Source: Microbacterium hominis
GTDB taxonomy: Bacteria > Actinomycetota > Actinomycetes > Actinomycetales > Microbacteriaceae
Assembly (NCBI RefSeq): GCF_013282805.1
Contig: NZ_CP054038.1
Coordinates: 2,852,001 to 2,916,000 of the forward strand
DNA: 64,000 nt
Direction: 5' to 3'
In this document: positions 11,089-55,892 of the stretch, piece by piece
Numbering within the stretch: position 1 is the first letter of the stretch
How the letters are laid out: every line of letters begins with the position of its first letter
Notes under the pieces: model-generated
Told to the model about the DNA's origin: nothing
The model's input: only the letters and a program-made list of their open reading frames with translations
Databases searched by the model: none
Made by a program: the position numbers and the translations under genes

Positions 11089-11958
11089 TCAGTCGCGGCG
11101 CCAGCTGCCCCAGAGCGCGACGCCGAGCGCGGCGATGAGCACGGCGACACCGCCGGCGATCCATGGGGTGAGAGGCGGCACCGTCATCGGGGTCGACGGC
11201 CCGAAGCCCACGCCCGCGATGATCGCGGCGCCCACGGCGACGCCGGCGCCGAGCCCCGCCAGCACGATGCCGATCGCCCGGCGCAGTCCGAACTGGGTGA
11301 TCAGCGCCCACCCGCCGGCGACGAGCACCCACGCGGTGGCAGCGAACGAGATCGCCGTGGCTGCGACGAGCAGAGCGGGGCGGACGCCGACCGCGTTCCA
11401 CCAAGCCTCAGGGCCGGCGATCGCGATCACCGAGAGCGAGAGCACGCTGTGGATCGCGATCGCCCCGCCCATCGCGGCGATGACGGGCCACGGCGAGTGA
11501 CGCCCGACGAGCAGTCGCACGACGAGGGCGAACACGAGCCAGCCCGCGAGCACTGCGGCCAGCTCCGCCCACGCGGTGAACGATGACTGCAGGGTGCGCG
11601 TTCCGATGATGAGGGCGACGGGAACGGTGATCATGAGCCAGCGGTCGAACGCCAGCACCCCGAGCGCCGACTCGCGCGCCCGCCACGGACGTGTCGAGCC
11701 GAGCCATGACGCCCGCGCTCCGGCCGCGCCGGGTCGACGCACGAGGCTCGTGCGCGCGGCGAGGATGCCGATCACCAGCCACGCGAGGGCGAGGGCGAGA
11801 ACGCCGCGGGCCAGCCACGCGAGCTCCTGCTGCGGGCCGCCCACCGGGCCGCCCAGCTGCAGCCACGGCCGCACGACCAGGGCGAACAGCGCGCCGACGA
11901 CGAGGAGCCCGAGAGCGATGGATGCCGCGGCGATGCCCCTGCGCCGCTCGATCGTCAT
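11089..11958 (-). CDS. Multi-pass membrane protein, unknown function
   Basis: A 289-residue hydrophobic protein with about seven to eight predicted membrane segments (for example ASIALGLLVVGALFALVV, VLALALAWLVIGIL, AVLAGWLVFALVVRL, AIHSVLSLSVIAIAG, AIGIVLAGLGAGVAVGAAIIAGV and a last helix before a WRRD tail). No catalytic or transport motif is recognisable. ATG at 11958 is chosen because the long open frame upstream is a shadow of the non-coding and exporter region. It lies downstream of the ABC exporter genes on the same strand but is separated from them by about 200 bases that hold a palindromic element, so cotranscription is uncertain. Confidence 0.75.
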   Translation of the reverse strand: MTIERRRGIAAASIALGLLVVGALFALVVRPWLQLGGPVGGPQQELAWLARGVLALALAWLVIGILAARTSLVRRPGAAGARASWLGSTRPWRARESALGVLAFDRWLMITVPVALIIGTRTLQSSFTAWAELAAVLAGWLVFALVVRLLVGRHSPWPVIAAMGGAIAIHSVLSLSVIAIAGPEAWWNAVGVRPALLVAATAISFAATAWVLVAGGWALITQFGLRRAIGIVLAGLGAGVAVGAAIIAGVGFGPSTPMTVPPLTPWIAGGVAVLIAALGVALWGSWRRD

Positions 11959-12049
11959 TCCCACACGGTAGCGCGTGCCCCATCCCCCCGCGCGCATGCG
12001 CGCATCGGCATGCGCCCGCGCGCGGCATCCACTATCGTCCATCGGCCGA

Positions 12050-12130
12050 TCCGGAAACCGGAGGTCGCCACGTTTGCCGGACGTGCGGGGCGCCATGGTC
12101 CGGCAAAGGCGGAGTGGTCCGGTTTCCGGA
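12050..12130. repeat. 81-bp nested palindrome, family A copy 1
   Basis: Outer arms TCCGGAAACCGGA (12050-12062) and TCCGGTTTCCGGA (12118-12130) are perfect complements. Inside is a second perfect inverted repeat, TTTGCCGGAC / GTCCGGCAAA. Total length is 81 bp, identical to copies at 39219 and 55812. It begins 32 bases past the permease stop. No T tract follows. Confidence 0.85.
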
Positions 12131-12161
12131 GCGGCGCGGAAGGGCGAGTGGATGCCGCGCG

Positions 12162-12965
12162 TCAGCTGCTGCGGCGCATCGCGCGCACACCCACCGCGAG
12201 GCCGACGGCCGCCAGCACGAGCGCGGCGATCCAGCCCCAGAGCACCTCGACGTCGCCGTAGGCGCCGCCGAACAGCGCGCGCTCGGCCTGCACGACCCAG
12301 TTCACGGGGTTGACGACCGCGACCGCGCGCATCCACGCGGGGCCGTCGTCGAGGGGCAGGAGCATGCCCGACAGGATCAGCAGCGGAAAGATCAGCGTCT
12401 GCTGCACGCCCCAGAAGAGCCACTCGCGGTCCTTGGTCTTCAGCGCCAGGGTGTACGACAACGACCCGAGGCCCACGCCGAACACCGCCAGCAGAGCGAG
12501 GCCGAGGATCATGCCGGGCACGTCGATGCGGAATCCGAACGGCCACGCGATCAACACGATGATGATCGCCTGCACCACGATCGGCGCGATCTCCTTGAGC
12601 GCGCGGCCGACCAGCAGCGACGAGCGCGACAACGGCGCCACGAGAGTGCGCTCGTGCGAGCCGGTCATCATCTCGTACTGCAGGTTCGATCCGGTGGCGC
12701 CGGTTCCGAACAGCACGATCATCACGAGCACGCCCGGCACGAACCACTGCAGGGTCTCCCCCACCGGCAGGCCCGACGTGCCGACCAGCAGAGGTGCGAA
12801 CAGCCCGAGGAACACCAGCGGCTGCACGAGCGAGAAGATGAGCGTGAACGGATCGCGAACGACGGGTTTGAGCTCGCGGGTCAGCACGTTCCAGGTGTCG
12901 CGGGCGGGGTTGGCACGCACGGCCGTGTCGGCGCGCCCCGGCGCAGGGGTCTGAGAAACAGTCAT
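12162..12965 (-). CDS. ABC-2 type exporter permease (DrrB-like)
   Basis: A 267-residue permease with six predicted membrane helices and the typical ABC-2 pattern: a cytoplasmic N-terminus (NVLTRELKPVVRDPFTLIFSLVQPLVFLGLF), a coupling helix, and the conserved stretch LIFPLLILSGMLLPLDDGPAWMRAVAVVNPVNWVV near the C-terminus. It forms the membrane part of an exporter with the ATPase encoded just upstream; the ATPase stop and the permease start overlap by 4 bases (ATGA), so subunits are made together. Closest described relatives export drugs such as daunorubicin, but the true substrate is unknown. Confidence 0.9.
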   Translation of the reverse strand: MTVSQTPAPGRADTAVRANPARDTWNVLTRELKPVVRDPFTLIFSLVQPLVFLGLFAPLLVGTSGLPVGETLQWFVPGVLVMIVLFGTGATGSNLQYEMMTGSHERTLVAPLSRSSLLVGRALKEIAPIVVQAIIIVLIAWPFGFRIDVPGMILGLALLAVFGVGLGSLSYTLALKTKDREWLFWGVQQTLIFPLLILSGMLLPLDDGPAWMRAVAVVNPVNWVVQAERALFGGAYGDVEVLWGWIAALVLAAVGLAVGVRAMRRSS

Positions 12966-30988: not shown

Positions 30989-31074
30989 CTGCAGAACTCC
31001 GGAAGGAATAGTGCGTCGCGGCGTCTGCGGGCGGGAATCCCGAGGTTTCCGCGAGCGGTTCCGGAGTTCTGCAG
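30989..31074. repeat. Inverted-repeat element, family B copy 1
   Basis: Perfect 16-bp arms CTGCAGAACTCCGGAA (30989-31004) and TTCCGGAGTTCTGCAG (31059-31074) enclose 54 bases. It fills the gap between two convergent genes: 12 bases from the polymerase-domain stop and 36 from the glycosyltransferase stop. Confidence 0.85.
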
Positions 31075-32992: not shown

Positions 32993-33083
32993 CGCGTGCA
33001 GAACTCCGGAAAACCTGCCCCGCGGCCGCCGATGGCGCCGGATTCACCCCGTTCCCGCGAGAAGTTCCGGAGTTCTGCACGCG
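32993..33083. repeat. Inverted-repeat element, family B copy 2
   Basis: Perfect 19-bp arms CGCGTGCAGAACTCCGGAA (32993-33011) and TTCCGGAGTTCTGCACGCG (33065-33083) around 53 bases. It lies 18 bases past the guaA stop codon. Core and right inner half align with copy 1. Confidence 0.85.
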
Positions 33084-39076: not shown

Positions 39077-39184
39077 CCTGGTTCCCGGCCGCTGCCTGGT
39101 TCGTGGTCGTTGCCTGGTTCCCGGCCGCTGCCTGGTTCCCGGCCGTTGCCTGGTTCCGGGCCGTTGCCTGGTTCGTGGTCGCCC
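39077..39184. repeat. 18-bp minisatellite, six units
   Basis: Units read CCTGGTTCCCGGCCGCTG with variants at positions 10-18 (for example CCTGGTTCGTGGTCGTTG), in register from 39077. It lies between the ABC-F start and the DUF2277 stop. The period is a multiple of three and all frames stay open, but nothing indicates translation. Confidence 0.8.
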
Positions 39185-39218: not shown

Positions 39219-39299
39219 TCCGGAAACCGGACCACCCGACGCTTTCCGGACCAGATCGCCCCGTCGCTCCGGGAACGGGCCCGGCCTCCGGTTTCCGGA
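39219..39299. repeat. 81-bp nested palindrome, family A copy 2
   Basis: Outer arms TCCGGAAACCGGA (39219-39231) and TCCGGTTTCCGGA (39287-39299), perfect. Inner half-sites are TTTCCGGA and TCCGGGAA (one mismatch). It ends 17 bases from the DUF2277 stop. Confidence 0.85.
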
Positions 39300-41836: not shown

Positions 41837-41873
41837 GGAGGGTGGATGCCGCGGGCTGCGGCATCCACCCTCC
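41837..41873. terminator. Bidirectional terminator between MFS gene and guaB
   Basis: Perfect 16-bp arms GGAGGGTGGATGCCGC / GCGGCATCCACCCTCC with a 5-base loop, between two convergent stops (41802 and 41887). The arm contains the GGATGCC heptamer. Confidence 0.9.
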
Positions 41874-47752: not shown

Positions 47753-47762
47753 CACGCGCTGT

Positions 47763-47806
47763 ACGAAAGAGGGGGTGGATGCCGCGGCATCCACCCCCTC
47801 TTTCGT
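47763..47806. terminator. 44-bp palindrome, terminator of the liv operon
   Basis: Perfect 21-bp arms meeting at GC; the stem centre is GGATGCC/GGCATCC and the outer part is ACGAAAGAGGG with its complement CCCTCTTTCGT. Ten bases after the LivF stop; functions like a long-stem terminator. Confidence 0.9.
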
Positions 47807-47866
47807 TGTGCGCGCCCGGCTCGGGTTGGGGCGTTCTCCCCCCGTCGTACCCGTGCGGCCCGGCGC

Positions 47867-53806: not shown

Positions 53807-53886
53807 GTGAGTCCACATCTCGCTCGTCGAGTCCACACATTCCCGCTCGAACGAGTGTGGACTCGGTGATCCAGATGTGGATTCAC
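53807..53886. repeat. 80-bp nested palindrome, family D
   Basis: Outer arms GTGAGTCCACATCT (53807-53820) and AGATGTGGATTCAC (53873-53886), 13 of 14 paired; inner arms CGAGTCCACAC (53828-53838) and GTGTGGACTCG (53855-53865), perfect. Four GAGTCCACA half-sites start at 53809, 53829, 53856 and 53876 (spacing 20, 27, 20). Confidence 0.85.
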
Positions 53887-54444: not shown

Positions 54445-55671
54445 ATGGAGATGGCCGAGCTGACCGCGCTGCTCACCCCCGAGGGCCTGCGTCTGCTCGA
54501 CGACCTCGACCGCGTCGCGTCGTCGGGTGACGTCGCTGCCGCCGTCAGCCGGCTGCGCAAGGCCGGCCACTCCCCCGACCTCGTCTCGGCCGTCGTCGGC
54601 CAGGCGCGGCTGCGCGAGCGCGCGGAGGCGAAGTTCGGCACGTTCGCCCAGCGCATGCTGTTCACCCGCGCGGGGCTCGAGCAGTCCACGCGATTGTCGA
54701 TCGCGGCGCGCCACGCGGCCCGGTTCCGCGACGCCGGCATCGGGCGGGTCGCCGACCTCGGCTGCGGCATCGGCGGCGACGCACTGGGCCTGGCAGGCCT
54801 CGGCCTGTCGGTCGACGCCGTCGACGCCGACGAGGTCACCGCCGCGGTGGCGGCCTACAACCTGGCGCCGTTCGGCGATGCGGTCACCGTTCGGCACCTG
54901 ACAGCGCAGGAATATGTGGATGCCGCGGGCGCGGCATCCACATCTCCCGCCTTCCCACTCGAGGGCGTCTGGCTCGATCCGGCGCGGCGCACCGCGGGGC
55001 ACGGCGACACCTCGCGCCTGCGCGCCGAGGACTGGTCGCCGCCGCTGGACTGGGCGCTCGCCCTCGCCGCGCGCGTGCCGGCGGGGATCAAGCTCGGGCC
55101 GGGGCTGGATCGCGACCTCATCCCCGACGGCGTCGAGGCGCAGTGGGTGAGCGCCGACGGGTCGACGATCGAACTCGTGCTGTGGTCGGGGGTGCTCGCG
55201 CGCGAGGGCGTGCGGCGGTCGGCGCTGGTGGTGCGCGGGGAGTCCGCGCACGAGCTGACCGCGCCCGCCGATGCCGACGACGCGCCCGTGCGCGAACTCG
55301 GCGCGTTCCTGCACGAGCCCGACGGGGCGGTGATCCGCGCGCGCCTGATCGGCGACGTGGCCCGCTCGCTCGAGGCGGGAATGCTCGACGAGCACATCGC
55401 CTACCTCACCTCCGACGCGGCGCTCACCTCGCCGTTCGTGCAGTCGTTCCGCGTGCGCGAGGCGATGCCGCTGAAGCTTCCGACGATCAATGCGGCCCTG
55501 CGCGCGGCCGGGATCGGCACGATCGAGATCAAGAAGCGCGGAGTGGACATCGACCCGGCGGCCTTCCGGCGCAAGCTCGTGCTGCGTGGCGACGCGGCTG
55601 CCACCCTCATCCTCACGCGGATCGGCTCGACCCGCCTCGCCGTGCTCGCCGACCGCGTCTTCGCCGGCTGA
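54445..55671 (+). CDS. SAM-dependent methyltransferase with THUMP-like C-terminus
   Basis: A 408-residue protein. An N-terminal helical part precedes a class I methyltransferase core with motif I VADLGCGIGGDALGLAG (residues ~102-118), an acidic D-A-D loop (VDAVDADEVTAAVA) and motif IV WLDPARRT. The C-terminal third (MPLKLPTINAALRAAGIGTIEIKKRGVDIDPAAFRRKLVLRGDAAATLILTRIG) is the THUMP-like domain, suggesting an RNA substrate. Methylation site unknown. ATG 54445 and 54451 are both possible. It is divergent from groES, so the CIRCE region may also affect it. A GGATGCCGC palindrome lies inside the gene at ~54917-54940. Confidence 0.88.
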   Translation: MEMAELTALLTPEGLRLLDDLDRVASSGDVAAAVSRLRKAGHSPDLVSAVVGQARLRERAEAKFGTFAQRMLFTRAGLEQSTRLSIAARHAARFRDAGIGRVADLGCGIGGDALGLAGLGLSVDAVDADEVTAAVAAYNLAPFGDAVTVRHLTAQEYVDAAGAASTSPAFPLEGVWLDPARRTAGHGDTSRLRAEDWSPPLDWALALAARVPAGIKLGPGLDRDLIPDGVEAQWVSADGSTIELVLWSGVLAREGVRRSALVVRGESAHELTAPADADDAPVRELGAFLHEPDGAVIRARLIGDVARSLEAGMLDEHIAYLTSDAALTSPFVQSFRVREAMPLKLPTINAALRAAGIGTIEIKKRGVDIDPAAFRRKLVLRGDAAATLILTRIGSTRLAVLADRVFAG

Positions 55672-55674
55672 CAC

Positions 55675-55797
55675 GCGCGGGCGGGCGCGCGGGCGGGCGG
55701 GCGGGCGGGCGCGCGGGCGGGCGGGCGCGCGGGCGCGCGGGCGCGCGGGCGGGCGCGCGGGCGCGCGGGCGGGCGGGCGGGCGCGCGGGCGGGCGCG
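55675..55797. repeat. GCGGGC/GCGCGC simple-sequence tract
   Basis: About 120 bases of mixed GGGCGGGC and GCGCGGGC units directly after the methyltransferase stop. Probably a slippage-prone, non-coding tract. Confidence 0.85.
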
Positions 55798-55811
55798 GCA
55801 TCCACCCCCCT

Positions 55812-55892
55812 TCCGGAAACCGGACAGCCGCCGTGTTTCCGGATCTGATCGGCCTCGGACTCCGGAAAGCCTGCGGGGGTCCGGTTTCCGGA
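55812..55892. repeat. 81-bp nested palindrome, family A copy 3
   Basis: Outer arms TCCGGAAACCGGA (55812-55824) and TCCGGTTTCCGGA (55880-55892), perfect; inner half-sites TTTCCGGA and TCCGGAAA, perfect. Lies between two convergent stops (55671 and 55963). Confidence 0.88.

Follow-up and report, generated by a model that had tools for sequence, protein, structure and literature searches.

Dispersed four-site palindromes paired with genes for a predicted DUF559 nuclease in Microbacterium hominis and its relatives

Family A palindromes in the window and in the genome

We analysed a stretch of 64,000 nucleotides of the Microbacterium hominis chromosome (assembly GCF_013282805.1, contig NZ_CP054038.1, positions 2,852,001 to 2,916,000; hereafter the window), in which a first-pass annotation made from the letters alone had pointed out a nested palindrome, here called family A. 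The whole genome, G000, is one contig of 3.908 Mb; other G numbers denote other members of the genus and L numbers denote loci. As that annotation described, the window holds three copies, at 12050..12130 (copy 1), 39219..39299 (copy 2) and 55812..55892 (copy 3). Each is 81 bp long with identical 13-bp arms and no assignable strand, and all three are solo copies. The genes on either side of copies 1 and 2 are both on the minus strand, and those around copy 3 are convergent. Single arms with at most two mismatches occur six times in the window compared to 1.77 expected, a number that none of 100 shuffles reaches.

Copy 1 illustrates the architecture. The outer arm TCCGGAAACCGGA (12050..12062, plus strand) carries the half-site core CCGGA at element positions 9-13, and an inner half-site follows at 12074..12081 (plus strand, element positions 25-32) with its CCGGA 19 bp from the outer one. 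Both are mirrored on the minus strand, the inner half-site at 12099..12106 (element positions 50-57) and the outer arm at 12118..12130. The sites are thus mirror-symmetric, as the annotation stated, but its near-constant spacing of 24-25 bp mixes the two strands: within one orientation the period is 19 bp, with CCGGA at 9-13 and 28-32. Likewise the inner half-sites do recur at fixed offsets, but they are imperfect in copy 1 (GTTTGCCGGA) and copy 2 (TCCGGGAA). Low-complexity tandem repeats (GGTTCCCGGCCGTTGCCT-like; GGGC/GCGC) adjoin copies 2 and 3, at 39100-39180 and 55690-55800 of the window.

A genome search of the kind that the annotation had proposed, with two arms 55 bases apart, yields 15 copies in G000. 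Fourteen have exact arms and an arm gap that is always 55 bases, while gaps of 40-70 were permitted; a fixed-spacing search with up to three mismatches adds one copy with a single mismatch and none with two or three. The reversed control pattern has no match in the whole G000 genome. Across the 15 copies the arms are near-invariant, the inner TTTCCGGA is strongly kept and the remainder drifts. The annotation expected interior positions 12-19 and 37-44 to stay conserved, and at the corresponding element positions 25-32 (T T T C C G G A) the base is kept in 28, 25, 20, 30, 30, 30, 30 and 25 of 30 strands. The symmetry extends three bases outward, with C at -3 in 21, G at -2 in 26 and A at -1 in 22 of the 30 strands. 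The interiors of the three window copies agree at only 26-30 of 55 positions, so that conserved geometry with variable filler, indicating selection on the half-sites, is borne out.

Element families are, with exceptions, paired with DUF559 genes

Exact-arm family A copies are found in only 3 of 149 genus genomes (G000 included), with 14, 9 and 3 copies. In each of the three, two copies 1.11-1.15 kb apart enclose a DUF559 / REase_MTES_1575 gene, which adjoins the same ABC-transporter gene in all three (the transporter was named from its sequence by eye). In G000 this partner gene is G000:C1:2811139-2812071, 40 kb before the window. It is flanked by two of the 15 copies, one per side, the remaining 13 being solo, and its neighbours resemble, by eye, open reading frames (ORFs) for GNAT and ABC transporter proteins. 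Named homologues carry names such as DUF559 or endonuclease domain-containing protein and very-short-patch-repair endonuclease, and DUF559 homologues occur in 140 of the 149 genomes (E 1e-20). The partner protein has no phage match (tblastn, 50,697 phage records), the window region around copy 1 has no plasmid match, and a viral-contig scan with one window protein gave no match.

Most of the next-closest relatives of the gene are flanked by palindromes of other sequence, among them TTCTGAAGGA, TCGCAGAA, CTCGGAGA, GGTCGGAG and CAACAGATTCGGA, their motifs being picked from shared words. By eye, about a dozen specificities exist in one bacterial family. Different families also occur within one genome. 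G000 carries five DUF559 genes, and a second one, L114 (G000:C1:2719882-2720649), is flanked by family B (TGCAGAACTCCGGAA), which has 11 copies in G000 and is found in 3 of 149 genomes with 11, 20 and 15 copies. In G091 a gene with 54-64% identity to L114 (two main pieces) likewise lies between family B elements. A third paralog, L113, sits between two almost identical elements of another sequence, with a spacing of 18 bp. The T family, TTCTGAAGGA, occurs in 4 of 149 genomes with 7, 8, 3 and 1 copies and flanks the gene in the first three. For TCTCGGAGA we found 9, 2 and 2 copies where the gene is flanked by TCTCGGAGA or a near variant, plus two further single matches without inner sites. The number of elements found per genome ranges from 2 to 20; the nine pattern matches in G020 include two identical ones on different contigs. 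From these sequence comparisons the pairing of gene and palindrome family is almost certainly real, and each DUF559 gene tends to own its element family, across species with exceptions and for two of the G000 paralogs.

One solo family A copy in G019 (L017) adjoins an apparent paralog of the ABC-transporter gene beside the DUF559 locus (L008). A 684-bp match at 65.6% between L008 and L017 joins the two ABC-transporter genes, which we took for paralogs.

Half-sites are repeated at 19 bp and mirrored

The elements of the relatives share a plan: a half-site recurs in direct orientation after 19 bp, and the two together are mirrored. A sequence-blind detector, which looks for 8-mers repeated at spacing d and mirrored, finds this plan at d=19 in 22 of 30 gene loci; the other values of d between 12 and 27 give 0-3 of 30 each. 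In 16 window segments it finds none at d=19 and 0-3 at other d. A looser score applied close to the gene gave both flanks in 23 of the 30 loci, but this count includes false positives and was set aside. We also applied it to named loci, taken as 80 of 145 relatives, of which 8 without full flanks were left out; many of the remaining 72 come from the same genomes as the 30. Here the detector marks 71 of 144 flanks at d=19, including both sides of the gene in 27 loci; the figure is 10 of 144 at d=18 and at most 4 of 144 at any further d from 10 to 30. Among 432 control segments from the same 72 loci there is one match at d=19. With d=18 and d=19 taken together, 49 of 72 loci have a positive flank on one side or both, and a few of the d=18 matches are low-complexity. 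Family A, with CCGGA at 9 and 28, mirrored, follows the same plan, its cores being generally too short for the detector. Among 21 further loci (L213-L233; L220 and L231 Microbacteriaceae, the rest outside that family) none is positive at 19 bp, and the one 18-bp match is a CGCCAC repeat.

Tandem runs of two or three elements occur beside the DUF559 gene in L031 (2441-2780, G020), L206 (2355-2543, G076) and L267 (1034-2613, G091), with near-identical fillers in G020 and G076.

Duplex half-sites rather than a fold appear to be kept

G107 and G042 provide six orthologous elements in flanks that are 92-95% identical. Differences fall at 9 of 240 positions in the half-sites, at 35 of 210 in the fillers and at 91 of 831 in the flanks (half-site versus filler, P 4e-6). 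Four of the six pairs were found via outer half-site patterns, which understates the outer differences; at the inner half-sites, which lie outside the search pattern, 1 of 120 positions differs, counted from the alignments.

The first-pass annotation had proposed selection on DNA or RNA structure. Its DNA half is supported; its RNA or hairpin half is not, since fillers pair no more than shuffles do. In family A, facing filler positions pair in 57 of 165 cases (0.35), compared to 0.43 when fillers are redealt among copies. The T family lies slightly above its shuffles, 0.45 versus 0.43 and 0.49 versus 0.44, short of P 0.05 (P 0.33 and 0.15-0.16), and family C gives 0.49 versus 0.55, again no excess. 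One possible compensatory pair in L077/L082 is outweighed by this test. A lack of excess pairing speaks against an RNA or hairpin role. In addition, an Rfam scan of the window has no match, and no terminator-like site (stem-loop plus T run) lies in 11500-12600, the region around copy 1 that was covered. On these three grounds an RNA or cruciform role was rejected. Read from alignments, what is kept is the duplex half-sites and their spacing, not a fold.

This bears on the idea that the palindromes are terminators or mRNA-stabilising hairpins that merely resemble one another. The predicted folds of the three window copies are strong (-42.7 to -55.5 kcal/mol) and 9 of 15 copies lie between convergent genes, both in its favour. 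The absent excess of filler pairing, the absent Rfam match and the absence of a terminator-like site at copy 1 all count against the idea, which also leaves unexplained why genome-specific sequences are tied to one gene family. We consider it scarcely credible.

The protein joins an AbiEi-like half to a predicted nuclease half

Pfam assigns DUF559 and REase_MTES_1575 to all 26 aligned members and AbiEi_4 to 7 of them. In the predicted structure (predicted local distance difference test score, pLDDT, 91.6) the N half resembles the AbiEi antitoxin 6y8q and the C half resembles I-Bth0305I and Vsr (1cw0); a profile search matches 3hrl and 3r3p (I-Bth0305I). Other, weak fold matches were left out of account. 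The C half carries catalytic residues of the EDxHD type. Because E199, D225, D237 and H242 are invariant among the aligned members, the nuclease half is probably active. One of two proteins has weak PADLOC matches, to AbiEi and to a homing endonuclease (E 0.007-0.026), and the other has none.

We compared motif similarity with protein similarity, starting from 118 loci and proteins; a motif was detected in 84 of these, and 62 were left once relatives of at least 85% identity had been dropped. With the C half controlled for, motif similarity tracks the N half (partial r 0.244, a value that none of 2000 permutations reached); for the C half with the N half controlled for, the partial r is 0.070 (P 0.045). 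This agrees with the AbiEi-like half reading the DNA. Both AbiEi and Rv2827c (1zel) bind inverted repeats, Rv2827c four of them, according to PMC7319586. Binding of the elements by the protein is predicted from its fold, the tracking of specificity and the shared plan, and it is very likely that the AbiEi-like half reads the half-sites.

Placement and movement of the elements

Gene orientation around the elements was taken from a crude gene caller of our own. By this caller all 15 family A copies in G000 are intergenic, whereas elsewhere one G107/G042 site and one G074 site fall within a called ORF. Nine of the 15 lie between convergent genes, 4 between tandem and 2 between divergent genes. 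The earlier statement that all copies lie downstream of gene 3' ends therefore holds for 13 of 15 and fails for the two divergent ones. The convergent share compares to 17% of intergenic length, with the window alone as background (P 2e-4); for solo copies it is 8 of 13 (P 4e-4). Family A is absent from a 1.77-Mb arc, G000:C1 1.04-2.81 Mb, around the presumed terminus (P 0.0085; dnaA was assigned by eye to G000 position 1), and family B is present in this arc, at 2.35 Mb. Within 100 kb of their own gene lie 3 of 13 family A copies (P 0.026) and 1 of 9 family B copies (P 0.38), a post hoc count that we do not rely on.

Upstream, downstream or tandem copies at the same gene can be 93-97% identical (L044, 70/75; L113, 68/72; tandem L206, 71/73), and the likeness stops 0-8 bp outside the element. 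Such a sharp border suggests that the element is copied as a unit. When family A copies were compared between genomes (15 in G000, 6 of 9 in G074, 3 of 3 in G019), the gene locus alone was common to G000 and the others. At the G000 site L002, both relatives have the same convergent gene pair without the element.

An 860-bp insert in G042 (L079 1088-1949), absent in G107, starts right beside a palindrome and resembles, by eye, a HEPN/nucleotidyltransferase toxin-antitoxin pair.

Proposed explanation and its alternatives

We propose that a predicted palindrome-binding nuclease, the DUF559 protein with its AbiEi-like winged-helix half, recognises the 81-bp palindromes as double-stranded DNA and that they are dispersed in the manner of REPINs, and give this reading a probability of about 0.6. 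Four protein copies would sit on one element via their AbiEi-like halves, and the nuclease half would nick or cut at or near it. When the damage is repaired, an exact unit copy of the element could occasionally be placed in an intergenic region, nearby or new. The solo elements would then resemble REPINs, forming a non-autonomous population with a vertically inherited gene at its centre. For the dispersal itself, we lean slightly towards the partner DUF559 protein as its driver. A bolder version is speculative and rather unlikely: dispersed palindromes coupled to an enzyme would have evolved independently a second time, with AbiEi-Vsr fusion nucleases that both copy their four-site elements and preserve them. 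If bound elements underwent strand-specific repair of a Vsr-like kind, half-sites could stay near-unchanged at old loci and spacers be free to drift.

Several observations weigh against this proposal. The coupling of gene and element has gaps: among the five DUF559 genes of G000, L115 shows no element and L111 a downstream one only, and no DUF559 gene was found within about 2 kb of the 13 family B copies listed out of 15 in G143. In G033, which has one T-family copy, the best-matching DUF559 gene (one of three matches, the sole one examined) is not flanked by it. Dispersal is scant in places, the copies with at most one mismatch in G035 and G136 being the gene-flanking pairs only and G019 having one solo copy. 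The detector is without a match in 8 of 30 relatives (some of them family A, with cores too short) and in 23 of 72 named loci. As to movement, the gap at L002 exceeds the element, so no clean empty site was seen, and none of the 15 copies has a target-site duplication among exact repeats of 3-10 bp. Six of 8 non-flanking sites in G107 or G042 are common to both and thus old, and one G107 site is also present in G069. The closest pair of family A fillers is no closer than chance (P 0.49), on which ground a recent copying burst in G000 was rejected, and the mean filler likeness of 17.3 compared to 16.9 of 39 (P 0.005) is barely above it. In the same test for family B, two 79-bp copies of the 11 were left out.

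An alternative is a network of binding sites that serves the host in chromosome organisation or gene control, its elements immobile and the flanking ones autoregulatory as in AbiEi. AbiEi-fold antitoxins do bind inverted repeats at their own promoter, four for Rv2827c (PMC7319586), half-sites are kept at orthologous loci, and a 1.77-Mb arc is free of family A. Such a network sits poorly with the mostly convergent setting of the copies (9, versus 4 tandem and 2 divergent), which is the reverse of operators. It is further at odds with a gene locus that alone is common to G000 and G074 or G019 among the copies compared, with duplication as sharp units and with the family B copy inside the supposedly empty arc. 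We regard it as doubtful, while giving it real weight. A defence role, in which bound elements label the chromosome or missing sites expose foreign DNA to the nuclease, draws on the conserved catalytic residues, the AbiEi-like half and the weak PADLOC matches of one protein. With 2-20 elements per genome the sites are too sparse for this, the neighbouring ORFs, read by eye and without a scan, showed no methylase or toxin partner, and the other protein has no PADLOC match; self-marking is improbable.

The elements might finally be ordinary miniature inverted-repeat transposable elements (MITEs), or else the terminal inverted repeats that an unrelated transposase acts on, the DUF559 gene being a passenger. 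Their dispersal, palindromic form and pairing around a gene speak for this. A MITE with target-site duplication was rejected, no copy having one, and half-sites at a fixed 19 bp, a specificity that tracks the DUF559 N half and two paralogs with two families in one genome all argue against a passenger gene. This origin is highly improbable.

Comparison with known systems

The closest parallel is the REPIN/RAYT system. As PMC3116915 and PMC3733652 describe them, REPINs are palindromes scattered outside genes, conserved at the ends and variable in between, and the enzyme gene is flanked by its own palindrome family, several families existing each with its enzyme. The RAYT enzyme is a Y1 HUH transposase, whereas the flanked gene here encodes a PD-(D/E)XK/Vsr-type DUF559 protein with an AbiEi-like half. 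Our elements differ further in having four half-sites, arranged as two direct pairs with a 19-bp spacing, and in their 2-20 copies found per genome, where REPINs have hundreds. REPINs commonly show compensatory spacer changes (PMC3116915), in contrast to the lack of spacer pairing excess in families A, T and C, and the foot tag GTAG or CGTC given in PMC3733652 is not in family A, whose conserved columns read CGA TCCGGAAACCGGA. Because tested defining features, enzyme and hairpin compensation, fail, we did not file the elements under REPIN/RAYT.

AbiEi-type antitoxins (6y8q, 1zel) share the N-half fold, and their monomers bind inverted repeats beside their own gene (PMC7319586); here a nuclease half is added, and elements flank the gene on either side and are also dispersed across the genome. 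Vsr and the EDxHD homing endonucleases (1cw0, 3r3p), and VsrA of Caulobacter (PMC12907096), share the C-half fold with the conserved E, D, D and H. They differ in having one target instead of a dispersed palindromic family, and next to our gene we noticed no intron, intein or methylase partner, none being scanned for.

MITEs and the terminal inverted repeats of insertion sequences (IS) are short non-autonomous repeats that share their ends with a gene-bearing unit. Our elements lack target-site duplications, flank a gene that is no known transposase and stand complete at each side of it. The annotation knew of no described element with this plan, and we found none in the literature searched, most subscription papers being outside reach; nor did that literature yield a published role for this kind of DUF559 homologue. 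The whole looks like a gene-plus-dispersed-repeat system of an undescribed kind.

A DUF559 subfamily would thereby gain a partner DNA element and a readable specificity code, in which a protein half is set against a half-site. If the elements move, a REPIN-like lifestyle has been reached with an unrelated enzyme; if they are immobile, they would form a hitherto unknown chromosome-wide nucleoprotein network with interchangeable specificities. Either way they offer a natural set of DNA readers with known candidate sites.

Other elements in the window

Two family B copies lie in the window without assignable strand. One is at 30990..31073, with arms TGCAGAACTCCGGAA and complement and thus of the family that flanks L114, and the second is at 32997..33079. 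A third-family element at 53809..53884, also without strand, has GAGTCCACA twice in direct orientation 20 bp apart, mirrored; the GAGTCCACA pair is at none of the five DUF559 loci of G000. Short hairpins whose arms are GGATGCCG / CGGCATCC occur at 41837-41873, 47755-47814 and 54909-54948 of the window, at L025 2623-2668 and in related loci; they form a separate family of repeat or terminator-like type.
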